Assembly (NCBI GenBank): GCA_027386095.1
Contig: DAHXUN010000005.1
Location: 22,909-86,908, forward strand
Direction of reading: 5' to 3'
Origin: Nitrososphaerota archaeon
GTDB taxonomy: Archaea > Thermoproteota > Nitrososphaeria > Nitrososphaerales > UBA183
Length of the DNA stretch: 64,000 bases
Positions 8,483-58,727 of the stretch are shown here, piece by piece; the stretch's first letter is position 1, and each line of letters opens with the position of its first letter. The position numbers and the translations under genes were made by a program. Under the pieces are notes generated by a model. It did no database searches and had not been told where the DNA came from. It saw only the letters and a program-made list of their open reading frames with translations.

Positions 8483-10804
8483 CTAGAGCGCGCTGAAGTT
8501 GTTCGTCCACTGCTGGTAGGCGCGGAGCATCTCAGGGGACACAGAAGGCTTCCTCGTCCTCATTATCTCCTTGAAGTCGCTTATGTCTATCGGCCGCGGG
8601 GTCGACTCCTTGTCGAGGGCGTTCCCTGACTTGAACAGCTCCCTGACCACCCTCAGCTGGACCCCCTGGCAGATGTCCTTGATGTCGCTCCCCGAGTACC
8701 CTTCGCTCAGCCTGGCCAGGGTCGCGGGGTCGACGTCCTCGGCCAGGGTGAGCGGCGCCGTATAGAGCTTGAACTGGGCCATGCGCGCCTCGTTGTCAGG
8801 GAGTGGGACGAGTATCCTCTTGGCGAAGCGGCGGAGGAAGGGAGGGTCGAGGGACCAGGGCTTGTTCGTGGCCCCTATGACATACATGTGGAGGTTCTTC
8901 CCTTTGTCGTTGATGCCGTCGGTCTCCTTCAGGAACTGGTCCCTGACCCTCACCTCCCCCCCTACCTCCTGGCCCCTGGTGCCGAGCAGGGAGTCTATCT
9001 CGTCTACGAACACTATCACCGGCTTGTTGTCTGACAGCATCTTCCTGGCGTTGTTGAAGAGCTTGGCCACGTTCTTCTCCCCCTCGCCGAGCCACTTGCT
9101 CATGATCGACGCCGCGTCGACGGAGATGAAGTAGCCGTCTATCTCAGCGGCCGTGGCCGCCGCCACCATCGTCTTGCCGCAGTTGCCGCTCCATACGGCC
9201 TTGCCGTTGCGCCTGACGTAGATGACATGGTTCTGGACGGTCACGTCCCAGACCATCCCCGAGTAGTACTCCCATTGCTCTATGCTGGGCTTGTCGACTC
9301 GCGTTTCGCCTCTGCGATACAGGATACTCAGCCTGAAGTTGGCCGTCGTCCGAGCTATCGTCGTCTCCTTTCCATCCGCTCCGACGATGGTGGCTGCGGC
9401 ACCGGCTTCCGTCTGGACCACATAGTTGCACGCCAGTCCCGCCTTGAGGGAAATCTCCATCAGGTCGTCCCGCAAGCGCGGCGAGGAGGTCTGGCAACGC
9501 ACCCCGGTGGCGCCAACCTCGGCTTCGTCTACCTCGTGCGCCCCATCGCCTCTCGCGTAATACTCCAGGACGCTTCGCAGGAGGGCTGGGGGCAGGTCCT
9601 TGATTTCATCTGGAATGTATCTGGTGTCTTTGTCGCCGATCGGCCGGAGGAGCTCGTATAGTTGCTTGTTGAGGACTGTCACGCGCCCGTCTGAAGAGAA
9701 ATGCGGGTCGAGCCCCCACTTCTTGAGGCTGTCGTATGCGAAGTCGAGGAGGTCCTGGTCCACGTTCCTTATCCCGACGTGGTAATTGCCTCCCCAGTAT
9801 GCGGTGTAGCCCTCGGCAAGCCAAAGCCCGAAGAACGGGGCCCATTCGGACATCGGTATCCTGATCTCCTCATGATTTCGCCCACTCCCTGACTCGCGCT
9901 GGGGGAGGAGAACGAATTCCCTGCCGATACCGCGCCACTTGGCATCTTTCTTGTAGTATGGACAAGTCCCCCCGTCCTCACTTCCAAACACGTCGTCTGG
10001 GTGGGCAAAATCGTACTTCACGTTGCCCTGCTGAGCCTTCTTCCCCACCCAGAGCTGATGGTCTGGTGTGACCATCAGGCTGACCTGGGCGGATTCCAGG
10101 CGGTACATCTTCCCTTCGTAGCGATATTGGATCTTTCGTACGATCGGGTGGTACTCGAGCTCGTTCGTGGCGGGGTTGAGCGTGGCCACGACCTCGTCGT
10201 CGGCCAGTTCGGTGTATTTCTTCCACCCCCTTTTGGTAAGGATCTCTGTCTGTTCGTCAAAGCAGCCCGGCGGGCCGTAGAGGAGTATCCCCCTGGGCCA
10301 CCCCAGCTTGAACAGGTCGGGGCGGAGGAAGGGGAAGACTATCGACTCGCGGATGGCCTGTTTGCAGTCCTCGAGGCCGATGACGTCGTCCCACTTGACG
10401 TCGGGCTTCTCGGTGACGACGAGCTCGTTGAACGAGGCCTTCAGCTGCTGCACCACCTGCGGTCCCGCTGGGGAGTTCGGGGTCGAAGACGTAGGGCCCT
10501 GGGCAGGGCCCGGCTTCGCTCCCACCGTGGGGGTCCACTCGGTCTCGGTGGGCTGGTCCTGAGGGATGAGGCCGTGGGCCGCCTGGATGGCCCTGACCCT
10601 CTCCTGGTAGGCCATGGCGCGCTCGGTGTACTGCCTGTTGAGCCGATAGTCCGGGTACAGGTGCACCAGCTTCACCAGGGTCGATATCGCCTTCTGGTAC
10701 ATCTGGATCGCCATGCCGTGGGCGCCCTGCGAGTCGAGCCTGATAGCCTCTGAAGCGTACTTCTTCGCGTCGTCCTCCAGCTCCTTGGCGGCGACCACGC
10801 TCAA
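8483..10804 (-). CDS. cdvC: CdvC (Vps4-like AAA ATPase) with an intein in the P-loop
   Basis: A 773-residue precursor. Residues 1-~80 form an MIT domain that binds CdvB tails. A Pro-rich linker follows, then the AAA module. Walker A is split: GPPG ends at residue 180 and CGKT resumes at 542, with a 361-residue intein between. Walker B is VIVFVDEIDS (Asp601, Glu602), and Arg fingers (FLRRFAKR) and a C-terminal helix follow. The spliced protein would be 412 residues, a normal Vps4 size. CdvC disassembles ESCRT-III polymers during cell division. Its ATG overlaps the cdvB stop by 4 bp, so the two are coupled. Until spliced, the ATPase cannot bind nucleotide. Confidence 0.95.
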   Translation of the reverse strand: MSVVAAKELEDDAKKYASEAIRLDSQGAHGMAIQMYQKAISTLVKLVHLYPDYRLNRQYTERAMAYQERVRAIQAAHGLIPQDQPTETEWTPTVGAKPGPAQGPTSSTPNSPAGPQVVQQLKASFNELVVTEKPDVKWDDVIGLEDCKQAIRESIVFPFLRPDLFKLGWPRGILLYGPPGCFDEQTEILTKRGWKKYTELADDEVVATLNPATNELEYHPIVRKIQYRYEGKMYRLESAQVSLMVTPDHQLWVGKKAQQGNVKYDFAHPDDVFGSEDGGTCPYYKKDAKWRGIGREFVLLPQRESGSGRNHEEIRIPMSEWAPFFGLWLAEGYTAYWGGNYHVGIRNVDQDLLDFAYDSLKKWGLDPHFSSDGRVTVLNKQLYELLRPIGDKDTRYIPDEIKDLPPALLRSVLEYYARGDGAHEVDEAEVGATGVRCQTSSPRLRDDLMEISLKAGLACNYVVQTEAGAAATIVGADGKETTIARTTANFRLSILYRRGETRVDKPSIEQWEYYSGMVWDVTVQNHVIYVRRNGKAVWSGNCGKTMVAAATAAEIDGYFISVDAASIMSKWLGEGEKNVAKLFNNARKMLSDNKPVIVFVDEIDSLLGTRGQEVGGEVRVRDQFLKETDGINDKGKNLHMYVIGATNKPWSLDPPFLRRFAKRILVPLPDNEARMAQFKLYTAPLTLAEDVDPATLARLSEGYSGSDIKDICQGVQLRVVRELFKSGNALDKESTPRPIDISDFKEIMRTRKPSVSPEMLRAYQQWTNNFSAL
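9182..10264 (-). mobile_element. Intein with two-motif LAGLIDADG homing endonuclease in CdvC
   Basis: The intein covers precursor residues 181-541. It starts with Cys181 (CFDEQTEILTKRGWKKYTEL, block A) and has the block B TxxH (TPDHQLWV). Two LAGLIDADG-type helices are visible (PFFGLWLAEGY and VLEYYARGDG). It ends with block F (MVWDVTVQNHVIYV) and block G (AVWSGN), followed by the +1 Cys of the extein. The penultimate residue is Gly rather than the usual His, a known but uncommon variation that can slow Asn cyclisation. Codon choice looks less GC-rich than in the flanking exteins, which suits lateral acquisition. Confidence 0.92.
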
Positions 10805-30645: not shown

Positions 30646-31587
30646 ATGCAGTCTCTCGAAGCCGAGTCGTGCCCCGACTGCTCTGTCCCCCTCCTGGACG
30701 CATGGGATGAGCTCGCCTGCCCGAACTGCGGGATGGTGAAGGAGAAGGCCGGAACCTCCGCCATCCCCGGCTCGCAGCCTAGCCAGCGCTACGGGCCGCA
30801 CCCCCTGGGGAGCTTCATGGGGACGGTGTGGGGGACGAGGTCCGAGAGGGCCACCAAGGGGATCACAGGCTCGAGCAGGAACTACGGCTACCTGAAGACG
30901 GTGTCCGACTTCACGGGGCGGGAGAATGGACAGGAGACCGAGTGCGCGAAGATGATCGAAAGGGTGGCTGAGAAGCTCGCCCTACCGAGGTTCGTCGGCC
31001 TCCAGGCCGCGGCCATAGCGAGGAAGGTCTCGAGGTCGGCCCGCACCAAGAGGAGGATGACCGTCGCGGAGATCTCGGCATACTCGCTGATGGCGGCATG
31101 CAGGATAGAAGGGGTGACGTCCTCGAACGCGGGCGAGATACTCGCCGCCCACGCCGTGCTTGGGAGGAGGGTCACCACATCTTCCATCATCCAGCTCAGC
31201 CTGGACTCCCCTGTGAAGACGTTCGCCAAAGGCCCCGAGGACTACGTGACCAGGGTCCTCGCGAAGCTTTCCATGAACCCGAACCTCGACTCCAAGCTGG
31301 CGAGGGCAGGGGTCGCGAAGGCGGCCTACTTCAACGCGGTCCGGTCGCTCGCCCTCGACCTGTTGTCCCGCTGCGACAGGATCTCAATGGGAGGGAGGAG
31401 GCCGTGCGCCCTGGCGGCTTCGGCGGTGTACTCCGCGGAGGCGGCCCTTGCGATGGCCGAGGGCAGGGGGAGGCGGGTGACCCAGAGGGAGATGGCAGAC
31501 TGCGGGGGGACCTCTGAGTACACCGTCAGGGAGCAGTGCGCCATGTTCTTCACCCCTGAGCTGGCTGAGCTGGCGAAGGGACTGTGA
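30646..31587 (+). CDS. tfb: Transcription factor B (TFB)
   Basis: A 313-residue TFIIB homologue. The N-terminal zinc ribbon is CPDCSVPLLDAWDELACPNCG, followed by the B-reader/linker region and two cyclin-like repeats (first around CAKMIERVAEKLALPRF to MAACRIEG, second around AYFNAVRSLALDLLSRCDRI to VREQC). It recruits RNA polymerase to TBP-bound promoters. Its 3' end overlaps the convergent pilin-like gene by 38 bp. A second TFB is encoded at 54.5-55.4 kb. Confidence 0.93.
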   Translation: MQSLEAESCPDCSVPLLDAWDELACPNCGMVKEKAGTSAIPGSQPSQRYGPHPLGSFMGTVWGTRSERATKGITGSSRNYGYLKTVSDFTGRENGQETECAKMIERVAEKLALPRFVGLQAAAIARKVSRSARTKRRMTVAEISAYSLMAACRIEGVTSSNAGEILAAHAVLGRRVTTSSIIQLSLDSPVKTFAKGPEDYVTRVLAKLSMNPNLDSKLARAGVAKAAYFNAVRSLALDLLSRCDRISMGGRRPCALAASAVYSAEAALAMAEGRGRRVTQREMADCGGTSEYTVREQCAMFFTPELAELAKGL

Positions 31588-36695: not shown

Positions 36696-37604
36696 ATGAG
36701 GGTAGCCGACGGCAAGTACGTCTCTTCGGCCGACGGGTCGAAGGTCAGGAGCATGGCGCTGTTCAGGGTCGGGGTCCCTGACGTCCCCGAAGACCCAAGG
36801 ATGGACTACTCCGCCGCCCTGAAGACGACGCTTCAGCAACAGAGGATGAAGGGCCTCTTCGAGGGTCTCCGGAGGGCAGGGCTCCCCTTCGTCTATGTCA
36901 TGCTGATGGACGAGGCCGAAGGCGAAGGCGAAGCGCCCCCTGTCCTCGAGTTCGACCTTGTCGTCGGGACGTGGGTGGACGGCAAGAAGAAGGAGGACCA
37001 GAGCCAGGCGCTGGAACAGCGGGCGAGCATACTGTCGGCGGCCCTGAGCGTGGCTCTCCCCACTGCCAACGTGGAGAGGCTGCTGAGGAAGGACCTGGCC
37101 GGGTTCATGAGGTCCATGCTCCTCCCCGGAGTGAGGCAACTCTCGCAGAGGGGGTCCCCCACCGCAGTCGGAGCCCTCTGCACCTTCGATGAGATGTCGC
37201 CGCTCTCCGCAAACCTGGAGAGGTCTCCTGATTTCTACATCCCCAACGCGGCGGAGTCGGGGCAGGACGGGCTCCTCCTCGGGTCGCTGAAGTCAGGTGG
37301 GAGGGAGTACCACGAGATCAGGCTGCAGCTGGACGACCTGCGGAGGCACGTGAGCGTCCTCGGGATGACAGGCTCGGGGAAGTCGACGACGGCAGCCGCC
37401 ATCGTGAAGCAGGCGGCGGAGGCGGGGCTCCCGGTGATGATACTCGACTGGCACAACGAGTACGGTGCGACCGCCCGGTCGGTCGGGGGGAAGGTGGTGG
37501 CGCCCGGGAAGGACGACTTCTCCCTGAACCCACTGGAAGGGGGGCCGGACACAGATCCCGCCGAGCACATAGCCATGGTCTCCGACATCTTCTCCCCTAT
37601 GCGT
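36696..37604 (+). pseudogene. HerA-like ATPase gene, 3' part missing at an integrase junction
   Basis: About 303 residues of a HerA/VirB4-like ATPase remain: an N-terminal beta-barrel-like region, then Walker A GMTGSGKSTTAAAIV, then ILDWHNEYG and DIFSPM. After about 37604 the similarity stops and the frame enters the integrase gene out of phase. Walker B, the sensor and the C-terminus are absent. The frame is open back to the prepilin stop (36614) with no standard start before ATG 36696, although HELASQVAWKLRPQARLGIE upstream looks conserved, so a CTG start near 36621 is possible. Its place after the pilus genes is intriguing. Confidence 0.7.
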
Positions 37605-37644
37605 CAAGCTTGGCCGTTATATCCGCCCCGGGGGTACTGTTTCG

Positions 37645-38736
37645 ATGAGCGTAGTCGAGGACTCGGACGACTGGAGGAGGTTCCTGGCTGCCATGCCGAA
37701 CGAGGCCACCAGGAAGGTCTACGCCCTATCCATGAAGTACTTCTTCGCCCACTGCGGGCTGGACAACGTGGCGTTCGTGAGGCTCGCGAAGGGGGACCCC
37801 GAGAAGGCCGAGGGGCTGGTCCAGGGGTACGTGGGGCACCTCAGGGGGAGGGCGGAGAAGGGGGAGATAGCGCTCTCCTCCGTGAGGGCCAGGGCGACCC
37901 CGATCAAGCTCTTCTGCGTGATGAACAGGTGCAGGCTCGACTGGGACTTCATCTCGAGGACCATACCGAAGAGCAGGAAGTGGGCCGACGACAGGGCCCC
38001 CACCAGGGACGAGATCAGGAGGGTGCTCAACCTCTGCACCCTGAGGATGAAGGTGGCCGTGGAGATGATGGCCTCCGGGGGTTTCAGGGTGGGGGCCTGG
38101 GACTACATGTGCGTCAGGGACGTGGAGCCGGTGGAGAGGGACGGGAGGGTGGCCGCAGCGAAGGTGACCGTCTACAGGGGGGAGCCGGAGCAGTACTTCA
38201 CCTACGTCACCCCCGAGGCCTGGGGGGTCTGCAGGCAGTACCTCGAGTACCGCAGGGCCCACGGGGAGGACGTGCTCCCGGGGGCGCCGCTGGTCAGGGA
38301 CGAGTTCGCCGTCTCCCAGGGGCGGAAGGGGACGGCGTCCGTGGTGAAGAGGCTCGGGTCCAGGGAGATAGAGAGGGAGCTCTTCAGGATACTGGGGAAG
38401 TCGGGGCTGAGGCAGGAGCGGAGGCGGAGGTACGAGTGGAAGGCGGCGCACGGGTACAGGAAGTGGTTCAAGACCCAGGCCGAGCAGGTGATGCGCCCCA
38501 TCCACGTGGAGATGCTGATGGGGCACTCGACAGGGGTGAGCAGCGCCTACTACAGGCCCACGGAGGCGCAGCTGCTTGAGGACTACCTGAAGGCGGTGCC
38601 TGTCCTCTCTGTGACCGAGTACAGGGACGTCAAGGAGGCGGAGGAGAAGATCAGGGCGGAGTTCGGGAGGAGGGTCGCACAGCTGGAGGCGCAGCTGGCT
38701 GAGGTTCTCCGGAGGCAAGCCGCCGCAGCGACGTGA
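37645..38736 (+). CDS. Tyrosine recombinase/integrase
   Basis: A 363-residue archaeal tyrosine integrase. The catalytic residues are visible: Arg in ASGGFRVGAWDY, His-x-x-Arg in HGYRKWFKT, His in LMGHSTGVSS and the nucleophile Tyr in AYYRPTE. The N-terminal ~130 residues form the core-binding domain, and the C-terminal coiled coil (RVAQLEAQLAEVLRRQ) may aid multimerisation. TATATCC-like TTATAT (37614-37621) gives leaderless spacing. It abuts the truncated HerA-like gene and is the likely agent of that insertion. Confidence 0.93.
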   Translation: MSVVEDSDDWRRFLAAMPNEATRKVYALSMKYFFAHCGLDNVAFVRLAKGDPEKAEGLVQGYVGHLRGRAEKGEIALSSVRARATPIKLFCVMNRCRLDWDFISRTIPKSRKWADDRAPTRDEIRRVLNLCTLRMKVAVEMMASGGFRVGAWDYMCVRDVEPVERDGRVAAAKVTVYRGEPEQYFTYVTPEAWGVCRQYLEYRRAHGEDVLPGAPLVRDEFAVSQGRKGTASVVKRLGSREIERELFRILGKSGLRQERRRRYEWKAAHGYRKWFKTQAEQVMRPIHVEMLMGHSTGVSSAYYRPTEAQLLEDYLKAVPVLSVTEYRDVKEAEEKIRAEFGRRVAQLEAQLAEVLRRQAAAAT

Positions 38737-46618: not shown

Positions 46619-49387
46619 TCAACTTTCCAGCTCGAACTCCTCCTGGACCGCCCTGCAAATCAGGTCATCAGACGTCACGCCTAGCTCCTCCAGGAACGAA
46701 TCTGGAGCGGCCTTCCATAGCAGGACCTTTCTCACCTTTGCCCTGAACGTCTCGAAAACCTCCTCCCGAGGCTGTCTCGAGTCTAGAACCGCCCTGGTCC
46801 GTCTGAGGTTCACAGCCCCTCGAAGGCCGACGAATCCAATCGCCGTCCTGATGCTCTCAATGGGGACACTGGCCGAGATGGAATACGCATGCCTGTAAGC
46901 CTGAAGTTGCTGGCGATAGCTCGACGACTGCCTGTCAGTCCTGCTAGTCTTCCAATCCACCAACAGGTGTCCGCCATCCTGATTCCTGAAGATGGCATCT
47001 ATTCTTCCTTCGAAATTCGTTCCTTTGCCCTCGCCGATGAGTTTCTCTAACGGAACCTGGATCTCGTGCTCCGCTGCCACCACCTCTGGGTAGTCTCTCT
47101 TGATTTGGCCCACGAGAGTCTTGACGTTATCCACAAATGGTTCCAGCTCACCAGGGATGGTATACTCGTTTCCCGACAGAATGGCGCTCGCGGCCTCGTG
47201 GACAAGGCTCCCTGTCTCTAAGCTGGCTGACGGCTCCTCGACGCCAAGGACCTTCGAGACCAAGTACTCTTCTGCGGCACCTTCTCCGGCGCTGCTCGGG
47301 AGCGAGGTGAACGACACGTGGTCGAGCTTCGCAAACCAGTCGGCGACGAATTCGCGGAGCCAAGCTTTCTTGGGGGGTTCCAGGGCCTGCTTCGCCTCCT
47401 CCGTCTCACCGTTAACGAAGAGGTTGAATGCGCGCTTCGCCCTTTCAGACGTGTCGGTGTAATCGACCCCGCCCAACTCGACCTCCCCCCTTTCGGCGAA
47501 CTCGTTCAGGTAGTCCTGGGCCTCCTCGGTGACGATATGGAGCTCGTCCTTGGCCCTCGTCAGCGCGACGAAGTCGATTCGGAGCGGCTCCTCAGACAGT
47601 TCCTCTTCGACGTTCACTCCTCTGGTCTCGAGAATCCTCTTCACGACCTCGTCCTGGAAGTCTTCACGCCCCCTGATGCTTTGGGGGACGTAGACCACCG
47701 CCTCGAACTGTCTCCCCTTTGCTTTGTGCACGGTGGTGAGGACCACGCCTTTCTCCCTCGCGGACTCGTCCGCCGCAGGCTCGCTCGACTTCAGGTACGC
47801 AATGACGCTGTCCAGGTCGGCCCCGCCTAGGGCACCCATCGACTCTGAGAAGGCTTTCTGAAGGTCAAGGGCGGCCAGCAGGTACTCCCTCCCGTAGGAC
47901 ACGGCCACCGGTACGATCTGGTCGCGGAAGAGCTCGTCCACGTCTGGCAGCTTCTTCACCCGGTCCCTCATCCTCTTGAATTCTGGGCACCTGACCGGGA
48001 GCTCCTTCCGAAGCTCGTCGTCCTCCAACTGAGCCAGCGAGAACGCGTCCCTGAGCCTCACGGGGAAGAACGGAGTGAACATGGCTGCCCTGACGTCCCG
48101 GATGTCGTCGCTGAGGATTCCCCGGAGGAAGCCCACGACGTGCGCGTGCGCCTCGTCAGAGGCCTGGAAGTAGGTCGAGGAGTGCTCGATGCGCCGCCTG
48201 CCCAGCTCCTGAGAGATCTCCCTGATCTGGCTGTTGGTCCGGCCTATCACCGCCACGTGCTTTCCTTCGTTCCTAAGGTTTTGGACCAGTTCGCAGGCCG
48301 TCTTGACCGTGGCGTCCCCCGGGACGTTGTAGACCTTCGGCCTGGGGCCCGGGCCCTTCTCTCTGTTCCTCAGGTCGCGCATCTCGTCGGCGGCCGTGGG
48401 GTCCTTCGTCCTCCCTACGAAGAAGGCCCTCGCGTACTCCAGGATCTCGTTGGTGCTCCTGAAGTTCTCGGACAGGACTGGCTTCTTGGAGTCCTCGAAC
48501 TTGCGGAAGTTGACTATGGACCCTCCCTGGAAGGCGAAGATGGCCTGCTTCTTGTCCCCCACGACGAAGAACTCGTCGCACGACTGCAGCACCATGTCTG
48601 CCTCTATCGCGCTCGCGTCCTGGAGCTCGTCGACAAGGGCGTGCCTGAAGTGCGGCTTCTTCCTCAGCTTCATGAACTGGAGGAGCATGTCAGCGTAGTC
48701 GATTCCCTTGCCTGCCTTCACGGACTCGTAGCGCCTGAAGATCTCGAGGAAGGCCTCGGCGTACCTGTCCATCTCCTGTTTGGTGACAGAGCCGTAGTCG
48801 CCCAGTAGCGCCTGGACTCTTGGCAGGTTGACGTCGTCTGGCATGACGCCGAAGCTCTTCAAGTAGCGGACCGAGTCCTCGACCTTGGGGACCACGTACC
48901 CGAGTAGGTACTCCTCCCCGTAGTTGAACACCTTGTTGTCAACGAGGTACCTGAACACGGCGTAACGAAGGAGGTTGTTTGACATGGTCTGCTGGGCCCC
49001 GATGGCTTCAAGGGCGTAGGCGTGGAACGTGGTGACCTTGATCCGAGACAACTCGATTTCAAGATCCGCCCCGACCAGCACCTTGATGATTGCCTCTCTC
49101 ATCTCGTCGGTGGCCTTGTCGGTGTAGGTAAGGCAGAGAATCTCTTCGGGTTTGACCCCGACCCTGACCAATTGAGCGTATTTGTGAGCAAGAAGGAGTG
49201 TCTTCCCGGTGCCCGGGTTGGCGATTACGAGGACGTTTCCTTCGGCTTCAAGGGCTCTGACTTTCTCCTCGTTGAGAGCGAAGGCCCTGGGCGCTGCGAC
49301 GGCCGCGGAAACTTCAAGGCGTGAAGGATCGTCTTCAGTCTGAATACGGGAATCAGGCTCTGGTCCTACGGGTGGCGCTTCCGCCAT
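46619..49387 (-). CDS. UvrD/Rep-type helicase fused to a PD-(D/E)XK nuclease
   Basis: A 922-residue SF1A helicase. Walker A is VIANPGTGKTLLLAHKYA, then LCLTYTDKATDEMR (Ia), HALVDELQDASAIE (Walker B), GDKKQAIFAFQGG (III), SENFRSTNEI (IV), VLTTVHKAKGRQFEAVVY (V) and FVALTRAKDELHIV (VI). The C-terminal ~200 residues are an AddB/RecB-like nuclease: HEAAS, EGRIDAIFRN and LLVDWKTSR. It would unwind and degrade DNA ends. Last gene of a four-gene operon with an RmuC-like protein. Confidence 0.92.
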   Translation of the reverse strand: MAEAPPVGPEPDSRIQTEDDPSRLEVSAAVAAPRAFALNEEKVRALEAEGNVLVIANPGTGKTLLLAHKYAQLVRVGVKPEEILCLTYTDKATDEMREAIIKVLVGADLEIELSRIKVTTFHAYALEAIGAQQTMSNNLLRYAVFRYLVDNKVFNYGEEYLLGYVVPKVEDSVRYLKSFGVMPDDVNLPRVQALLGDYGSVTKQEMDRYAEAFLEIFRRYESVKAGKGIDYADMLLQFMKLRKKPHFRHALVDELQDASAIEADMVLQSCDEFFVVGDKKQAIFAFQGGSIVNFRKFEDSKKPVLSENFRSTNEILEYARAFFVGRTKDPTAADEMRDLRNREKGPGPRPKVYNVPGDATVKTACELVQNLRNEGKHVAVIGRTNSQIREISQELGRRRIEHSSTYFQASDEAHAHVVGFLRGILSDDIRDVRAAMFTPFFPVRLRDAFSLAQLEDDELRKELPVRCPEFKRMRDRVKKLPDVDELFRDQIVPVAVSYGREYLLAALDLQKAFSESMGALGGADLDSVIAYLKSSEPAADESAREKGVVLTTVHKAKGRQFEAVVYVPQSIRGREDFQDEVVKRILETRGVNVEEELSEEPLRIDFVALTRAKDELHIVTEEAQDYLNEFAERGEVELGGVDYTDTSERAKRAFNLFVNGETEEAKQALEPPKKAWLREFVADWFAKLDHVSFTSLPSSAGEGAAEEYLVSKVLGVEEPSASLETGSLVHEAASAILSGNEYTIPGELEPFVDNVKTLVGQIKRDYPEVVAAEHEIQVPLEKLIGEGKGTNFEGRIDAIFRNQDGGHLLVDWKTSRTDRQSSSYRQQLQAYRHAYSISASVPIESIRTAIGFVGLRGAVNLRRTRAVLDSRQPREEVFETFRAKVRKVLLWKAAPDSFLEELGVTSDDLICRAVQEEFELES

Positions 49388-49402
49388 TTGGATTCCGACT
49401 CC

Positions 49403-50473
49403 CTATGTCTCTTCGGAAGGCTCCTCTGTGGTTTCCCCGAACAGGGCTGCTGGTGAAGCTTGCAAGGCGGCCGGGGGTTTCGTCCCACCCACTTCGCCTA
49501 GGTGAGTGGTTATGCTGCTGAGCTCCTTCCTGGTGTCGTCGATGTCCTCCGCTGCCTGGTCCGCGTTCTTGTAGGCGCTCTTCAGGTTCTTCGCCAACCG
49601 CCCGAAGTCTGCTCCCACCTGCTCGAGCTTGCCGTCGATCTCTTGGACGTACGTCGTGAGCCGTTCCGCGCTCTTGGCCAGGACTATCGCCTGGTGCGCC
49701 CGCAGAGCCAGGCTGGACAGGATGATTATCCCTTCAGGAGGGCACGCGACCACCCTGATCTCCTGCATCGAGCCGACGGTTTCCGCTGTGAGCGCGTAGA
49801 AGACGGAGTTGGGGAGGACCATGACCGCGAAGTCCGTGGTCACCCCCGGGGCGATGTACTTGACCAGCTCCTCCGCCCTCTTCCTGGCCAGCCTGTTCGC
49901 CTCCCCCTCGAAGTCCTCCGCTCCGTCCGGCAGACTGAACTTGGCGTCGATGGGGAGGTACAGCTGGGACCCCCCGTTGCTCATCCGCAGGGCGTAGTCG
50001 ACTCGGTCGCTGGACCCGGGAAGGTAGTACTGCTCCTCCCAGAGCTCCTTGGGGAGCCTTTCGAGGTAGCTCCGGACGATGATCTCCCCCGCCGCTCCTC
50101 TCTTCTGCGAGCTCCCCGTCAACAAGGCGGCGAATTTCTTCATCTCCTCCATCCCCGAAGTGGTCTGACCCGTGTCTCTCCTGATCTCTCCCACGGTGGA
50201 GACCAGTTGGGTTACGGCGGCCTGAAGACCAGAGACGGAACCCTTCACTTCGCCCAGGGTGGATTCCAGGGGACCGGTGTCCGGCCCAATCCCGACAGGC
50301 TTCCTCCTCACGACAATCAGCACGTAAAGAATAGCAACGAAGGTGATGGCAGAAAGCCCCAAGGCCGACAGGGTCAGGACATCGGCCAATCCAGGGACCT
50401 CACCAGGCCAGGGGGTATTCCTCCATGTAAGTCTACCAGAATCCTCTCTGAACTCATCTTCAGGACGCACCAT
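49403..50473 (-). CDS. RmuC-like DNA-recombination-limiting protein, membrane-anchored
   Basis: A 356-residue protein: one N-terminal membrane helix (ALGLSAITFVAILYVLIVVR), a coiled coil, and the RmuC nuclease-like domain with KRGAAGEIIVRSYLERLPKE, SSDRVDYALRM and YLPIDAKFSLPDG (the D...DAK pair of a PD-(D/E)xK fold), then another coiled coil. RmuC proteins limit inversions and recombination in bacteria. The ATG at 50473 (MVRPEDEFRED) overlaps the previous gene by 14 bp; 16 bp separate it from the helicase gene. Confidence 0.88.
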   Translation of the reverse strand: MVRPEDEFREDSGRLTWRNTPWPGEVPGLADVLTLSALGLSAITFVAILYVLIVVRRKPVGIGPDTGPLESTLGEVKGSVSGLQAAVTQLVSTVGEIRRDTGQTTSGMEEMKKFAALLTGSSQKRGAAGEIIVRSYLERLPKELWEEQYYLPGSSDRVDYALRMSNGGSQLYLPIDAKFSLPDGAEDFEGEANRLARKRAEELVKYIAPGVTTDFAVMVLPNSVFYALTAETVGSMQEIRVVACPPEGIIILSSLALRAHQAIVLAKSAERLTTYVQEIDGKLEQVGADFGRLAKNLKSAYKNADQAAEDIDDTRKELSSITTHLGEVGGTKPPAALQASPAALFGETTEEPSEET

Positions 50474-51758
50474 TGATTGCGCTTTGGGAGCCGTTCCCTC
50501 GCCGTTTCGGCCAAAGAGGAATGGACCTGACGTATAGGCTGACAATGATGTGATCTCGCGCCGCTTCTTTCGGAAGCTTGGCGTAATCGCCTTGTTCGAA
50601 GATGTCGAGCAGTCTCTCCTTGGGCATGAGGTCCTGCAACGTCGCAGCCTGCAGTGTCTCCCCGTATACGGCCTTCCTTTCTCTCGCCTTAGCGATGCCG
50701 CCTCCATCCCTCCAGGCTCGCATAATCGCATATGCGGGCATCAGCGCGACGAGCAAGACCAGGATGCTGAACCCGCCCGTGCTGACCGGGAGGTCGCCGA
50801 GCCATACCCACAGGTACAGTCCGAGGGTGAACAGCGAGATACCAACAAGTGGGAACCCCTCCGTGTCCCACGCAAATAGCGCCCCGAAGTGGTAGATGAA
50901 CCAGGCCCTTTGTTTCATGCCCCTCCAGATGCGGGCCGACCCATAGCCGTCGACGACCTCTTGGATTCGTGGCTCGACGGGGGCGGCGTAATCGTCGGGA
51001 ATGGCCAGCGACGGGTCATCGTGAAGGATTGGCTTCTTCATCTGCTCAAACCACTCCGCGGCCACTGTAGGACCCAACATAGAGAATGTCAGAACAAGCA
51101 ACGGAATGGTCACCTCTGGATCGCTCAACCAAGGCGACCCCACAGCCACGAGGCCCACGAACGAAGCCAACAGGATGAACATCGCATAAATCCCCCGCCG
51201 GGCCCATTTCCTGTAGGAATCGTGCCTCGCCCTGTATTCCTCCTCGGTGTAAGGCCGCAGCAGGGGTGTCAGGCTGCCTGATATCTCCCTGAGTGTGGTC
51301 GGAACTTTGCCCGTCCTCCTCGCCTGAATGAAGAACCACGACCGGAACCTCGCCAGGTCTGGGTCTGCCTCTGACTCGATCGATCCCTCAAGGGAGATGC
51401 CGAGAAACATTGGGACGAACAGCGCGAATATTGCAGCAAACGGGACCATGAAGAGGCTTTCCGTCACTGTTGACATCCACGCTACTACAGGGACCAGAAG
51501 GACCACCTCCAGGGCGATTACAGCCATCATCCAGGGGCGAAAACGCTTCAGGTTCGCCGGGTTGAAAGCGAACAGCGCCATGAACCAGAAGAGGAACCCT
51601 GAGCGGGCGTAACGCCCGGCCGAGTCAACCAGCGGGGCCAACTGGTTCTCCTCGACGAGTCTGGAGGCGGTCTCCCGGAGCCCAAGGCGCGAGCTTGACC
51701 TCATGAAGGAGAAGCTGAGCCCGCCATACAACAGTGACGTTCCTCTCAATTGTTCCAT
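50460..51758 (-). CDS. Polytopic membrane protein of unknown function
   Basis: A 432-residue protein with two hydrophobic hairpins in the first third (FLFWFMALFAF and MMAVIALEVVLLVPVVAW with MVPFAAIFALFVPMFLGIS) and two further pairs (IYAMFILLASFVGLVAVG, ISLFTLGLYLWVWLG and ILVLLVALMPAYAIM), separated by soluble helical loops. The N-terminal part carries a peptidase-M48-like membrane arrangement but no HExxH. Not recognised. It overlaps both neighbours by 13-14 bp in the four-gene operon, so it is likely to be a functional partner of the RmuC-like protein and the helicase. Confidence 0.7.
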   Translation of the reverse strand: MEQLRGTSLLYGGLSFSFMRSSSRLGLRETASRLVEENQLAPLVDSAGRYARSGFLFWFMALFAFNPANLKRFRPWMMAVIALEVVLLVPVVAWMSTVTESLFMVPFAAIFALFVPMFLGISLEGSIESEADPDLARFRSWFFIQARRTGKVPTTLREISGSLTPLLRPYTEEEYRARHDSYRKWARRGIYAMFILLASFVGLVAVGSPWLSDPEVTIPLLVLTFSMLGPTVAAEWFEQMKKPILHDDPSLAIPDDYAAPVEPRIQEVVDGYGSARIWRGMKQRAWFIYHFGALFAWDTEGFPLVGISLFTLGLYLWVWLGDLPVSTGGFSILVLLVALMPAYAIMRAWRDGGGIAKARERKAVYGETLQAATLQDLMPKERLLDIFEQGDYAKLPKEAARDHIIVSLYVRSIPLWPKRRGNGSQSAINGAS

Positions 51759-52231
51759 CCTCCGTCAAGTACCCAGTTCACCAGGGCCTTCCTGACGTTG
51801 GGAGCAAGGTCCTTCGTCTCCTCGTACAGCTCGCGCAGCTCGAAGTCTTCTAGATTCTTCCCCCTCCGCTTCTCAAGGACGGCCTTGACTTCGGCGAGCT
51901 CGGCCGACAGCTTCTGAGTAATCCTCGCCTTCGTATAGTACAGCACTCCGCCGCCCCTGAGGGTCGCCCGTTCCACCAGGCCGGCAGTCTGGAGGGGCTT
52001 CAGCAGGAAGAGCACCCCTGAATGAGTCATTCCCAGGCGTTCCGAGAGTTCGGCTGCTATCAGGCCCTCCGGTGCATCCCCAAGATCCTTGAGAATCCGT
52101 GCCTGGCTCTCGTTTATCGCGAGAGGAGTTTCGCCGGGGGCTTCCGCTCTGAATCCCTTGGGAGTCTTCACTATCGACACAATCCCTGTCTTCCGAGGCA
52201 GCTCCAGCCTGATTCCGCTGACCGCGTCCAC
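51746..52231 (-). CDS. Winged-helix transcriptional regulator
   Basis: A 161-residue protein with a central winged helix (ESQARILKDLGDAPEGLIAA, ELSERLGMTHSGVLFLLKPL, QTAGLVERATLRGGGVLYYT) and a C-terminal helical dimerisation region. It heads the operon with the membrane protein, RmuC-like protein and helicase-nuclease, and is probably its regulator. The GTG at 52231 is preferred to the upstream TTG (52288), since TTATTAA (52254-52260) lies 26 bp before the GTG while the TTG lies upstream of the promoter. Confidence 0.8.
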   Translation of the reverse strand: MDAVSGIRLELPRKTGIVSIVKTPKGFRAEAPGETPLAINESQARILKDLGDAPEGLIAAELSERLGMTHSGVLFLLKPLQTAGLVERATLRGGGVLYYTKARITQKLSAELAEVKAVLEKRRGKNLEDFELRELYEETKDLAPNVRKALVNWVLDGGWNN

Positions 52232-52446
52232 ACGCGGCCTACTCTCCGAGGCACTTAATAACCTTATAGCTGACTTAGGGGTCTCCAAGTAGCTTGGAGG
52301 GAAGCGCGGGCAGGAAGGTCTTGGGGCGCAAAAGGAGGAGAGGGTTCGCTAAGAAGCGGTATAGAGGATGCGAAGAAGGCACAAAAAAAGAAGAGGGAAG
52401 GCTACTAACTAAGCCGCAACTCTCTACCGTTCCGCTGGCCGAACCG

Positions 52447-53074: not shown

Positions 53075-53941
53075 CTAGATGGTGGCTGGCTGCTCCGGGG
53101 AGTAGATCAGGTCGAGGACCTTCTTCGCCCGGTCCAACACCCTCATGCAGAGTCGGCCGACCTGCTGCGGGCTGCTCGACTGGGCCTGGGAGGCGATGTA
53201 TGTCCACGAAAAGCCGTCGTCGGGCTTCCCGTAGAGCCTGGCGAGGGTCCCTGCTACGAGCTGGGCGATGGTTTCGGCTTCAGGCTCCTGGCCGTGATTT
53301 GTCTTCGGCTCGAAGGACCTGTGCAGGGCGTGGGCCAGCTCGTGGAAGAAGACGGTCCAGTCAGGGGTGGCGAGGGCGATGACCTGATGCTCGTAGTCTG
53401 TCATCCCGAAGACGCCCGCCGAGAGGCGGAGGTAGTTGACGCGCATCCCGAACCTTTCCGCGACTTCGAGGAGAGGAGGAGGGTCTCTTGGCTTGTAGGT
53501 CGGAAGGTCTGCGCCTTCTGTGTCCTCGAGGCGGAACACAGGGATTCCTTTGAAGCCGACGAGGACGTCGACCTCTTCGTCGTCCTCGGGGTCCCCGCTG
53601 GTGCCTTCGACCAGTCTCCTGGCGAGGACAGGGCCCAGGATGTAGAAGGCCTTCTCGCCCCGCCGGACGTGCCTTCCCACGGCCTGCCACTGCCTGTACC
53701 CGCGAGCGTCGCCGGTGCCCGCGAGCAGTATGAGGATCTGATTCCCCATCGACCACTTCGACGATGGGACCTCGGGGGCGGAGATGAGGCTCTTGGCGCA
53801 GAGGTCTGGCAGCTGCGTGGTGGAGAAGAGCCGGACGACCTTCTCCAGCTCGGTGTTCGCGCGTTCCCTCCAGGGTGTCTGCGACTCTTGTGATGCCTGC
53901 GATTCCTCGACAGCTTGCGCTGGGTTCTCTGCTGTTTGCAT
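53075..53941 (-). CDS. ArdC-like antirestriction protein with metallopeptidase domain
   Basis: A 288-residue protein. The N-terminal domain has SSKWSMGNQILILLAGTGDA, GYRQWQAVGRHVRRGEKAFY and ILGP, which resembles the ssDNA-binding domain of ArdC (DUF1738). The C-terminal domain carries the zinc-metallopeptidase motif FFHELAHALH with a downstream Glu (EAETIAQLVAGTLA). ArdC proteins protect incoming conjugative DNA from restriction. It is the last gene of a TFB-led leftward group, consistent with a mobile element. Confidence 0.85.
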   Translation of the reverse strand: MQTAENPAQAVEESQASQESQTPWRERANTELEKVVRLFSTTQLPDLCAKSLISAPEVPSSKWSMGNQILILLAGTGDARGYRQWQAVGRHVRRGEKAFYILGPVLARRLVEGTSGDPEDDEEVDVLVGFKGIPVFRLEDTEGADLPTYKPRDPPPLLEVAERFGMRVNYLRLSAGVFGMTDYEHQVIALATPDWTVFFHELAHALHRSFEPKTNHGQEPEAETIAQLVAGTLARLYGKPDDGFSWTYIASQAQSSSPQQVGRLCMRVLDRAKKVLDLIYSPEQPATI

Positions 53942-54476: not shown

Positions 54477-55433
54477 CTAGGGCCCGCCCCCATTTAACGG
54501 GCGGGACACCTTGTCGATGACGCTGGCCACGAACTCGCGGATGGTGTATTCCGCGATTGCCATGGTCTCGGCCACGTCCCTCTGGGTGACGGCCCTGGAG
54601 CCCGCCTCCCTCGAGGCGATGTAGACGCAGCCGGCCGCTATGGTCCGGGGGTTGCGTCCCTCTTCCGTGCTTCGGACCGCGCTGACGACGGCCTGCGAGG
54701 TCTGCAGGAGCCTCCGGAAGTATTGGCCTGGCTCGGTGGAGCCCTTGGCCAGCCTCCTGGCGACCCTGGCGTTCGACCCCAGGCCAGCCACGACGGTCCT
54801 CAGAAGTGCCGCGGGGTCGGCGGGCCTGAGGGGCGTCCTGGATTCCAGTCCCATCTGGAGCAGGGCGGACCTGCTCACCCTGTGCCCCATGTCTGCATGG
54901 GCCTGGAGGACGGCTTTCGAGCCGACCTGGTGCATCCCCGCGGCCCTGCATGCGGAGAGCAGGGCGTAGGCGGATATGGCTGGGATCGATGTCCGTCGTC
55001 TGCCCGCCCCATTGGCCCTGCTGTCGGCCAGCATCTTCTCGGAGAGGGCCATCGCGTTGTCCCAGACGAAGGCCGGGAGAGAGAGCCTGTCGGCCGCCCT
55101 CCTGATCATGGCCTTGCAGTTCCACGCAGCCTGGTCGACCCCCATGTTGTCCGAGATGCGCTTGGCGAAGCCGACCGTGCATGCCCCGTTGAAGTCGGCG
55201 CTGGAGTCCTTGTCGGACTTGTCCCCCACGAAGGAGCCGAGCCCGTTCGAGAGCTGGCTGGGGGCGCGGATGCGCACTTCTAGGTGGAACTTTTCCTCCT
55301 CCACCTTCCTGGCCACGACGCCGCACGACGAGCAGACATATTCGTCGCCCGCCTGGACCACGTGGCCCCTGCATTCCCTGCACCTCTCCGTGAGGCGCGT
55401 TCCGTCCGTTCCGATCTGTCGAAGGCTCTCCAT
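54477..55433 (-). CDS. Transcription factor B (TFB), element-borne paralogue
   Basis: A 318-residue TFIIB homologue with zinc ribbon CRECRGHVVQAGDEYVCSSCG and two cyclin repeats (CKAMIRRAADRLSLPAFVWD to AYALLSACRAAG, and YFRRLLQTSQAVVSAV to YTIREFVASV). It differs markedly from the copy at 30.6 kb. The start is set at the ATG at 55433 because GGAGATGAT, a near-perfect Shine-Dalgarno, lies 7 nt before it; two ATGs just upstream overlap that site. It may direct transcription of the element. Confidence 0.9.
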   Translation of the reverse strand: MESLRQIGTDGTRLTERCRECRGHVVQAGDEYVCSSCGVVARKVEEEKFHLEVRIRAPSQLSNGLGSFVGDKSDKDSSADFNGACTVGFAKRISDNMGVDQAAWNCKAMIRRAADRLSLPAFVWDNAMALSEKMLADSRANGAGRRRTSIPAISAYALLSACRAAGMHQVGSKAVLQAHADMGHRVSRSALLQMGLESRTPLRPADPAALLRTVVAGLGSNARVARRLAKGSTEPGQYFRRLLQTSQAVVSAVRSTEEGRNPRTIAAGCVYIASREAGSRAVTQRDVAETMAIAEYTIREFVASVIDKVSRPLNGGGP

Positions 55434-56074
55434 GTGCATCATCTCCTTTTGTGGTTGCCCTGGGTCGGCCCCGAGAGCCGGGGCTGGCCGTAGCTCGCTG
55501 GCGCGTCGGGAACGGCGTTGGGAAGCGGCCGGTGGTGTCCTTCTGGGCCTCTGCCAGATGGTCGATGCTCGCCGCTGGGGGCGAAAATCACGAGCAGGAC
55601 GGCCTTCTGTTCTATCTCAGATGTGTGCTGGGATTTCTATTACATCCCAAGAACCTGAGAGCAGGGCGGAGCGACTATCTCCACCTCCGTTCTTCCCTCG
55701 ACCGTTCGCCGGCGCGAGAGAGCAGTATTTTCGTCCCTTTCACGGGCAGATCTGAGAGACGGCTAAACGACGGCAGGCCCCTGTTGGATGTTCTTGTCAC
55801 GACAAAAGAGGGAGGAAACGAGTGTGGTTGATTCATTCACAGGCACCGCTGATGGTGCTATTACGGTGCGCCCCGTACTGAGGCGAACCTCTGTTTTTCG
55901 TTGGGGGGTTTGCTAATAGTTTAGCAGCCTGGAAGTTGTTGGGAGTATTTAACGCGCGGAAGTCCGATGCACATTCTGCTTCGATTACCGCCGCGTTTGG
56001 CCATTGCCCAGGGAACCCCCGGGGTCTTGCCGAAGCCGTCCGGGCGGACGAAGGCCGAAGACGCGCTCCGGGAC
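55434..56074. other. Intergenic region
   Basis: No convincing gene. It contains the palindrome GCTAA-TAGT-TTAGC at 55912-55925. With the adjacent iteron-like array it forms an ~800-bp non-coding block. Confidence 0.45.
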
Positions 56075-56255: not shown

Positions 56256-58727
56256 TCAGTCGAGGCGGGCCTGCGGGTCGGAAGACGCGGGGCCTGCCTC
56301 CGCGACCAGGTTCCTGCCCGCGTCTGTGGGCTGATAGCCCTTCCCCTTCTTCTGGACGAGCTTCTTGTCAGCGAGGCTGTCGAGATATCTTGTCACCTGC
56401 CTGCCGCTGATGCCGAGGCCTAACGCAAGCGCCTTCCGGCCGTTCCACCCCGACTCGCAGATGATGGCCAGGAGCCTGAACTCCTTGTCCTGGAGGGAAG
56501 CCGGGACCGGCCGTGCTTCCACCTTCTTGGATTTGTCGCCAGCGGTCGGCGTCGCGTCAGCCCCTTCGCCCTTCCCGGCCGCCTCCTGCACTGCGAGCCT
56601 CTCCTCCTTGGCTTTCTCCTCTTCAGCCATCAGCCTCTCGAGCTCGTCCTTCTGCAGCCCCAAGTCCTTGAACACGACGTCGAAGGTTCCCTTTTCCTTG
56701 TCCTCCAGTATCCTCCTGACCTCTGAGGCGAGGTCCACGGAGACGACGACGAACCTGACCTTGGAGTACTTCGGGTAGTTCTTGTCGTAGTTGGCCCTGA
56801 GCTGGGCCAGGTTCTTCCTGGGGTTGACCTCCACCTCGGCCGCCTCCTTCTTCTCGTCCCACTTGTCCGGGTCGAGGTAGACGGTCGGCCTGCCCTCCCT
56901 CGCCTTGCCCCTCACTGTCACGGGCTTTGTGATCAGTATGTCGGGGAGGGGCCTGTTCTCGTCCCCCCTGTCCCAGACGCACCAGTACCCCCTGTCCCAG
57001 TACTCCTCGAGGAGGGCCTCTATCGCCCTGAGATGGAGGGGGTCGCCCGGCCTGTCCGTCGTTTCGCTGACCCGGAGCTTGAAGAACTCCTCCTCGGAGG
57101 CGGGGGTCGTCGAGTAGAGCATGTCCCTGGCCTTCCTCTTCTCGTCGTCTGTCTCCGGCTCCTTGTACGCGGCGAGCCCGGTCTCCGGGTCGATTTCAAC
57201 GAAGAGCTGCGCTATGCCTGGCCTCTTCGCCACGTACCCCCCTTCGAACAGCTTGTCCAGCCCGAACTGCAGTATCTTCTTGTCCCAGCCGTACCTGTCC
57301 TCGAATATCCTGCTCAGGGCCCTGAAGCCCATCTCGCCGTGGCAGTGGAGGTAGGCCAGGGGGACCCAGCGAGCCGGCTCCCCGAGCCAGCAGTCCCCGC
57401 GCTCCTTCGCAGCCTGGTCGAGCTCAGGCTTGTAGATGAGAGTGGTGTCCCCGGTGGCGCCGCCGTACTTCGCCTCCATGTCGACCTTCATGAAGTCGAA
57501 GGCCTCGGCGTAGGTGCTCAGCGGGTCTGGGAGCTTCGGGAAGGAGACCCTGAAGGGGGGCTCCCGGGGCCTCCCGCCGACAGGCCTCTTCCTCACCACG
57601 GCCGAGTAGTCCTCCAGCCCCGGGATGAGCTCGGCCACGTCTTCGGCCCTCTCCGGGTAGAGGACCTTCGAGAGACGCCTGGCGTCGTCGGAGCTGGACC
57701 TGAAAGCTATGATCGGGCCCACGTTGGCCTCCACGGAAGCGAGCAGGTCCTCGGGTATGTCGGAGAGGGTCTGGGAGACCATCCAGAGGTAGAGGCCGTA
57801 CTTCCTCGACTGGGAGAGGATGGTCCTGAGGATCCTGAGCTGGGCGATGTCCCGGAACTCGTCGGCGGCGAAGATCACGGGGGTGCGGGCCGTGGGCTCC
57901 TGGCCGGCCCTCTCCAGTCTGCTGGCCCGCTTGAGGCTCGCGAAGTAGAGCTTCATCACGATGGCGGAGGCGAAGATCCTCCTGAACTCGCTCGGGAGGT
58001 TGGGAGGGACCCTGAAGATGGTAAGGGTCCCCGGCTCCATCAGCTTCTCCAGGTCGAAGGTGGACTTGCGGTTGCAGAAGGTCCGGAACGTTATCGAGTC
58101 CTGCGGGAGGACGAAGTTGGATATCCTGTTGAGGACGGGCATGTAGGCGTCCTGGGGGAGCTTCGAGATCGCTTCCATGGTCCCCCGGATGATGTCCTTC
58201 TGCACCTCCTTCCGGTTGAGGAGGTCCTCTACCTCCTTCGGGGTCCGCTTGGTGAAGTCCAGGGTGATGTTGTAGACCTCCCAGAGGGTCGGGTCCGGGG
58301 TGAACCTGTAGTCGAAGTACTGGACCCCCTTGAAGACCCACATGAGGCGGGGAGCGTTGACCGAGTCCGTGTTGAAGACGTCGGAGAGGAGGACCGAGAA
58401 CTCGTCCACCTGGGTGTGGGTGAACTCGGGCTTCTCCTCGGGGGTGAGCCCCTCGGGGAGGGAGAGGAGGTTGAACCCGAAGGTCACGTACTGGGGGTCG
58501 AGCAGGTTGACCCGGCCCCATTCAGACTTCGGGATGGCGCGGACGAGGTCGATGGACGCGTCGCCGGCCGGGTCGAAGAAGAAGAGGGCGGGCTGCGGCT
58601 TCCCTTCCTCCTTCTTGCTGAAGAGGAGCTTGAGCATGTGCAGGACCGCGTTTGTCTTGCCGCTCCCGGTCCCGCCGGTGACGAGCATGTGGAACTTCAT
58701 GTCGTCGCTGTCGAGGGTCTGGCCCAA
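56256..58727 (-). CDS. HerA/TraG-like DNA-translocase ATPase with winged-helix C-terminus
   Basis: An 823-residue protein. Walker A is VTGGTGSGKTNAVLHMLKLL near residue 20, ALFFFDPAG follows, and PVIFAADEFRDIAQ is Walker B with SQTLSDIP as the sensor region. The middle is long and helical. The last ~70 residues resemble a winged helix (RLLAIICESGWNGRKALALG, LGISGRQVTRYLDSLADKKL). It fits the VirD4/TraG coupling-protein or HerA class that pumps DNA. The start is TTG, ~35 bp after GTTAAAGG (58757-58764). It lacks an evident N-terminal membrane helix. Confidence 0.8.
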   Translation of the reverse strand: MGQTLDSDDMKFHMLVTGGTGSGKTNAVLHMLKLLFSKKEEGKPQPALFFFDPAGDASIDLVRAIPKSEWGRVNLLDPQYVTFGFNLLSLPEGLTPEEKPEFTHTQVDEFSVLLSDVFNTDSVNAPRLMWVFKGVQYFDYRFTPDPTLWEVYNITLDFTKRTPKEVEDLLNRKEVQKDIIRGTMEAISKLPQDAYMPVLNRISNFVLPQDSITFRTFCNRKSTFDLEKLMEPGTLTIFRVPPNLPSEFRRIFASAIVMKLYFASLKRASRLERAGQEPTARTPVIFAADEFRDIAQLRILRTILSQSRKYGLYLWMVSQTLSDIPEDLLASVEANVGPIIAFRSSSDDARRLSKVLYPERAEDVAELIPGLEDYSAVVRKRPVGGRPREPPFRVSFPKLPDPLSTYAEAFDFMKVDMEAKYGGATGDTTLIYKPELDQAAKERGDCWLGEPARWVPLAYLHCHGEMGFRALSRIFEDRYGWDKKILQFGLDKLFEGGYVAKRPGIAQLFVEIDPETGLAAYKEPETDDEKRKARDMLYSTTPASEEEFFKLRVSETTDRPGDPLHLRAIEALLEEYWDRGYWCVWDRGDENRPLPDILITKPVTVRGKAREGRPTVYLDPDKWDEKKEAAEVEVNPRKNLAQLRANYDKNYPKYSKVRFVVVSVDLASEVRRILEDKEKGTFDVVFKDLGLQKDELERLMAEEEKAKEERLAVQEAAGKGEGADATPTAGDKSKKVEARPVPASLQDKEFRLLAIICESGWNGRKALALGLGISGRQVTRYLDSLADKKLVQKKGKGYQPTDAGRNLVAEAGPASSDPQARLD

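Follow-up and report, generated by a model that had tools for sequence, protein, structure and literature searches.

The first RmuC-domain protein for which a tested role in defence was reported belongs to the Shield system of Pseudomonas. In the portions of that report considered here, a membrane RmuC protein, ShdA, degrades DNA, blocks phages and lowers transformation; it is sufficient alone for defence, is accompanied by accessory partners in the vicinity of other defence genes, and was found only in Pseudomonas (PMC10270631). Here we describe an archaeal locus in which a gene for an RmuC-family nuclease is directly followed by one for a UvrD-type helicase-nuclease. The two lie in a minus-strand operon at positions 46619-52231 of a 64,000-nucleotide stretch, the whole of which we call the window, from a Nitrososphaerota archaeon (assembly GCA_027386095.1, contig DAHXUN010000005.1; genome of 1.67 Mb in 3 contigs). 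The initial annotation had proposed that four genes, encoding a winged helix-turn-helix (wHTH) regulator, a polytopic membrane protein, a membrane-anchored RmuC-like protein and the helicase-nuclease, make a coherent DNA-attack machine at the membrane that corresponds to no named system it knew of. All four open reading frames (ORFs) are present in that arrangement. The RmuC-UvrD pair recurs, being found on a Thermoplasmata contig and indicated by four pairs of RmuC and UvrD clusters whose contigs are of equal size, but the membrane protein is not supported as a conserved part.

Like ShdA, the RmuC protein is a nuclease with an RmuC domain and an N-terminal membrane anchor, which is predicted here; it differs in its length (328 amino acids (aa) as against approximately 520 for ShdA, whose type I-IV constructs end at 521-526 in the portions considered), its archaeal origin and its pairing with UvrD, the comparison being made with ShdA and not with its partners ShdB-E (PMC10270631). 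The UvrD protein has the same order of helicase and PD-(D/E)XK domains as its relatives, among them ORF40 of Methanoperedens plasmids in the part considered of a study on these (PMC9674854), and is set apart from its family by its position directly after RmuC, most relatives having no demonstrated RmuC link. A UvrD-type helicase is likewise found in Gabija, and PADLOC GajB models match parts of the window UvrD's helicase core (up to 1.2e-31). However, no GajA OLD/TOPRIM nuclease was found among the Pfam and PADLOC matches listed for ten neighbouring proteins, and neither the C-terminal nuclease domain nor RmuC is known as a Gabija part. Zorya combines the MotA/MotB-like membrane proteins ZorA and ZorB with a helicase/nuclease effector; the membrane protein of the window, for which the structural model is poor, has no MotA or MotB match in Pfam or PADLOC and is accompanied by RmuC instead. 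Our scans are consistent with the view that the gene set matches no named system, since neither the RmuC nor the membrane protein was matched by a model of PADLOC or NCBIfam. RmuC is not mentioned in the portion considered of a survey of thaumarchaeal elements (PMC6563490), and no description of an archaeal RmuC-UvrD pair was found in the titles or abstract openings of the papers listed by searches of the open-licence PMC literature.

Scanned as a 442-aa ORF, the RmuC protein matched Pfam PF02646 with an E value of 6.1e-17 (62.1 bits, cut-off 26). It shares the catalytic motif of that family: the PD-(D/E)XK motif is intact, the D..DxK residues are conserved in an alignment with its relatives (alignment A2), and the fold matches of an AlphaFold2 (AF2) model support the nuclease assignment. 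One N-terminal transmembrane helix and a coiled coil are predicted; the hydropathy peak lies at residues 37-55 of the 356-aa form, and the AF2 model places a helix at 30-56. Together, the intact motif and the predicted helix favour the proposed membrane-anchored nuclease. A search for relatives returned 28 at E values of 4e-55 or lower, after which the next match fell to 1.5e-9; the organisms named among them were Thermoprotei archaeon, Saccharolobus sp. and Metallosphaera sp. By these scores the protein is a member of a small archaeal subfamily that is distinct within PF02646.

The UvrD protein gave Pfam matches above the cut-offs to UvrD-helicase (PF00580, E value 6.1e-36), PF13361 and PDDEXK_1 (PF12705, E value 3.7e-9). 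Both helicase and nuclease motifs can be recognized in it (GTGKT, DELQD, TRAKDE and LVDWKT), in keeping with its annotation as a putative helicase-nuclease. Its family is mostly archaeal and large, with 1224 matches at E values of 0.001 or lower, of which the best 120 were listed. One genome (G268, loci L024 and L026) has two UvrD-PD-(D/E)XK copies with no RmuC gene nearby, and one of these copies sits among genes that by eye appear to encode DNA methyltransferases and a Vsr-type nuclease.

The one other locus at which the pair was read directly is on a Thermoplasmata contig of 16047 bases (L003, RmuC cluster P0030), on which RmuC and UvrD genes are adjacent in divergent orientation. In addition, four pairs of RmuC and UvrD clusters came from contigs of identical size (6014, 14933, 23695 and 33319 bases), as against 0.14 expected. 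This test is indirect; under a null of our own devising, with jittered sizes, four coincidences were never reached in 20,000 trials. The protein searches behind it scored only those candidates that shared most words with the query, and among the listed UvrD relatives the size-matched partners stand at ranks 4, 7, 8 and 12. A tree of 126 UvrD sequences placed the protein of the window and the four size-matched ones within one 14-member clade (support 0.91) and that of L003 elsewhere. Equal size can also arise by chance: contig G180:C1 (18,880 bases) has the size of the contig of RmuC cluster P0008, and its examined part holds no RmuC. If the 6014-base sequences (P0006 and P0051) are from the same contig, their RmuC and UvrD genes lie within approximately 2.3 kb of each other. 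This RmuC is 90% identical to that of the window and this UvrD 66%, the latter being 80% identical to the UvrD of another contig. On the evidence of these loci, RmuC and UvrD are a recurring pair and the conserved core of the operon, and the pairwise identities suggest that the two may have exchanged partners between elements while the pairing was retained.

The operon looks mobile and rare. At an E value of 1e-10 the RmuC subfamily was found in one of 398 genomes of the phylum, one of 400 of the order and one of 46 of the family, each time the window's own; these draws overlap and many of the genomes are incomplete, with 15 of the 46 family genomes reaching 90% completeness and showing no more than 5% contamination. 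UvrD was present at 1e-20 in one of 61 near relatives, again the window's own, and at 1e-60 in seven of the 398 phylum genomes, the window's own included; the other six are tentatively placed in Nitrosopumilaceae. Both proteins belong to known repair and recombination families, and they might be ordinary host repair genes caught in the element by chance. We rejected this explanation as very improbable since both are absent at these thresholds from the other relatives sampled, the RmuC subfamily from 45 family genomes and UvrD from 60 near relatives, and for the same reason the genes do not have the appearance of a host core.

The arrangement of the operon was largely as first annotated (Table 1). 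The wHTH protein, a probable regulator, matched Pfam MarR_2 (E value 2.4e-6, 28 bits, cut-off 27) and the wHTH part of PADLOC Csa3 (1.5e-6). Its start was set initially at GTG 52231, and the ORF list offers TTG 52288 as an alternative. The 13 bp overlap between the wHTH and membrane protein genes was as described, and the gap between RmuC and UvrD measured 15 bp and not 16 bp. A reported 14 bp overlap between the membrane protein and RmuC genes depends on an RmuC start at ATG 50473. In alignment A2, however, the residue matching TTG 50389 (M/LADxLTL) is the first residue in 24 of the 28 relatives, the exceptions starting later (P0016, P0012) or a few residues earlier (P0024, P0030). TTG 50389 is therefore the most likely start, which replaces the overlap with a 70 bp gap. 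A single promoter for all four genes, as proposed, is plausible, because the TATA-like 16-mer upstream of GTG 52231 has only 4 G or C in 16 and no equally AT-rich 16-mer occurs in the interior of the operon; such 16-mers make up 0.25% of those across positions 38001-64000 of the window.

The membrane protein has six hydropathy peaks and no match in Pfam, PADLOC, NCBIfam or PHROG. Its AF2 model was poor (pLDDT 61) and the best Foldseek match (E value 0.72) was not significant, so that no inference was drawn from it. Only four relatives were found, 47-61% identical (five peaks each in P0001-P0003), and further scans of viral contigs, genome contigs, plasmids and 300 genomes of the phylum added nothing beyond the window's own genome. 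We therefore dropped this protein as the hallmark of a system; for now, its gene counts as peculiar to the window's element. As it is unseen with any other RmuC-UvrD pair, a conserved four-gene system is not established. It may be that RmuC and UvrD act together by themselves and that the membrane protein and wHTH genes are unrelated, co-transcribed cargo, an explanation to which we give nearly even odds and which is compatible with either of the functions considered below. In its favour, an HMM search of the ORFs of at least 70 aa on L003 found no membrane protein, and none of the relatives' contigs is equal in size to an RmuC contig or a listed UvrD contig. Those contigs are only 1.4-3.1 kb long, too short to display neighbours, and the overlap with the wHTH gene and the one TATA-like element for all four genes speak against cargo.

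Table 1. Features of the RmuC-UvrD operon and of its surroundings in the window
Feature	Position	Strand	Evidence
UvrD-like superfamily 1A (SF1A) helicase with C-terminal PD-(D/E)XK nuclease, 922 aa	46619..49387	-	PF00580, PF13361, PF12705; motifs
RmuC-family PD-(D/E)XK nuclease, 328 aa, TTG start	49403..50389	-	PF02646; alignment A2; AF2 model; fold matches
Polytopic membrane protein of no known family, 432 aa	50460..51758	-	Hydropathy; 4 relatives
wHTH protein (MarR/ArsR-like), probable regulator	51746..52231	-	GTG start 52231; stop 51746; Pfam MarR_2, PADLOC Csa3
TATA-like promoter element (candidate)	52254..52269	-	-38 to -23 of GTG 52231; consensus likeness alone
Integrase-like gene, left side of element	37645..38736	+	phrog_1 integrase 1.6e-4, weak; no Pfam match
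N6-adenine methyltransferase (type IIG/PglX-like), 1013 aa	42992..46033	+	N6_Mtase 2.2e-15, Eco57I 3.4e-13; convergent
ArdC-like antirestriction candidate	53075..53941	-	ArdcN 2.8e-4, below Pfam cut-off; PHROG anti-restriction 1.9e-5
TFB homologue	54477..55442	-	PF00382 2.7e-12
VirD4/TraG-like coupling ATPase	56256..58727	-	T4SS-DNA_transf 1.9e-7, 30.8 bits, cut-off 20.1

As judged from the neighbouring genes, the operon lies in an archaeal element of conjugative type, probably an integrative one, in line with the initial placement in an integrated element. Besides the VirD4/TraG-like gene, the window contains T2SSE ATPase and archaeal type IV pilin genes, and T2SSF, AAA_10 and Rad51-like genes follow beyond it. 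The pilin and the TFB homologue mark the host as archaeal. The AAA_10 gene (L014:2691-4634; 36.8 bits, cut-off 27.5) is taken by us to mark a VirB4-type ATPase. Two further genes were recognized by eye, one for a B-family polymerase and one for a TrbL-like membrane protein that has no Pfam match. The integrase-like gene, a weak match in PHROG only, adjoins a HerA-like gene (36696-37645) whose DUF87 match ends at profile position 76 of 220, and the element may have integrated into the latter. When exact 16-mers of the 35-43 kb side were compared with the sequence rightward as far as extended position 122,820, the single pair found lay in an unrelated place, and no attachment repeat was identified. 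A second protein (30646-31587), separated from the TFB homologue by the integrase-like gene, has a weak TFIIB-repeat match below the cut-off.

Two neighbours had been pointed out initially, a restriction-modification gene and an antirestriction gene. The second stands as the ArdC-like candidate. For the first, an N6-adenine methyltransferase gene is indeed present beside the operon, but it is convergent and its stretch has a GC content of 0.51-0.52, as against 0.57-0.62. It is probably a separate acquisition and not part of the operon, and for these reasons a restriction system joining the two was not adopted.

The surroundings also bear on what the pair does. RmuC and UvrD probably destroy or trim DNA near the membrane, and they could do so in the service of the element, processing double-strand ends and limiting or directing recombination as the element replicates, is excised or is transferred by conjugation, with the membrane RmuC acting near the transfer channel. 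Bacterial conjugative elements carry exonuclease modules, to which this role may be likened. The operon has genes of conjugation and replication around it (VirD4-like, T2SSE, AAA_10 and Rad51-like), which fits such a role, as do the numerous UvrD relatives, solitary in six genomes. Two separate nucleases, one of them membrane-anchored, together with their own regulator would nevertheless appear to exceed the needs of end processing. Moreover, the neighbours of the L003 pair include a transposase and a phage-integrase-family fragment, and no conjugation gene was recognized in its 16 kb, for which 8 of the 17 ORFs were scanned against Pfam. We regard processing of the element's own DNA as possible at somewhat less than even odds, nearly as likely as defence.

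Our favoured reading, to which we assign a probability of about 0.42, is that of defence or exclusion: the operon would be an accessory DNA-degradation module of the element, working at the membrane against foreign or competing DNA. Several observations weigh against it. Processing of the element's own DNA accounts for the genes almost as well, and in part of the study of Methanoperedens plasmids ORF40, a UvrD-PD-(D/E)XK gene, lies apart from ORF176, an RmuC gene, and both are discussed as recombination genes (PMC9674854), which also favours service to the element. Four of the 28 RmuC clusters are size-matched to UvrD and one more (P0030) was read directly, leaving 23 without a demonstrated UvrD partner. 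Solitary UvrD relatives, 34-37% identical to that of the window, were found at seven loci in six other genomes with no RmuC or membrane protein gene in the flanks examined (mostly 7-8 kb; those of the L029 gene were approximately 6 and 3 kb, and the L030 gene, itself truncated by the contig end, had one flank of 0.1 kb), and the UvrD of L003, at 35%, is no closer than these. The membrane protein has not been seen with other pairs. Finally, no clear defence gene was found beside the L003 pair (PADLOC on 9 of the 17 ORFs, Pfam on 8 of these), the PADLOC matches being weak and confined to the RmuC coiled coil. The same contig shows, at 155-643 and 9612-10055, weak matches to a Shedu C-terminal domain (0.0059) and a Hint domain (7.6e-4), both below the cut-off.

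Under defence or exclusion, the N-terminal helix of RmuC would tether it to the membrane, where it would cut DNA, while the UvrD-PD-(D/E)XK protein, perhaps in a complex with it, would load on DNA ends, unwind and degrade. The wHTH protein would control the single transcript, and the polytopic protein would be an accessory, anchoring or gating the nuclease in the window's element alone. The most likely use would be the destruction of competing or incoming DNA, viral or plasmid, near the membrane, as in the RmuC-based Shield of Pseudomonas. It is tempting to go further and to picture the polytopic protein sensing DNA entry and releasing or positioning the tethered RmuC, which would feed ends to UvrD in a form of conjugative-element immunity or warfare, an archaeal counterpart of Shield that excludes rivals with its own end-processing motor; we consider this version unlikely. 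If the RmuC/UvrD-nuclease pair does recur on archaeal mobile elements, membrane-tethered RmuC nucleases would extend to the archaea and gain an end-processing partner, and RmuC-UvrD would be a concrete gene pair relevant to how archaea may exclude viruses or rival plasmids.
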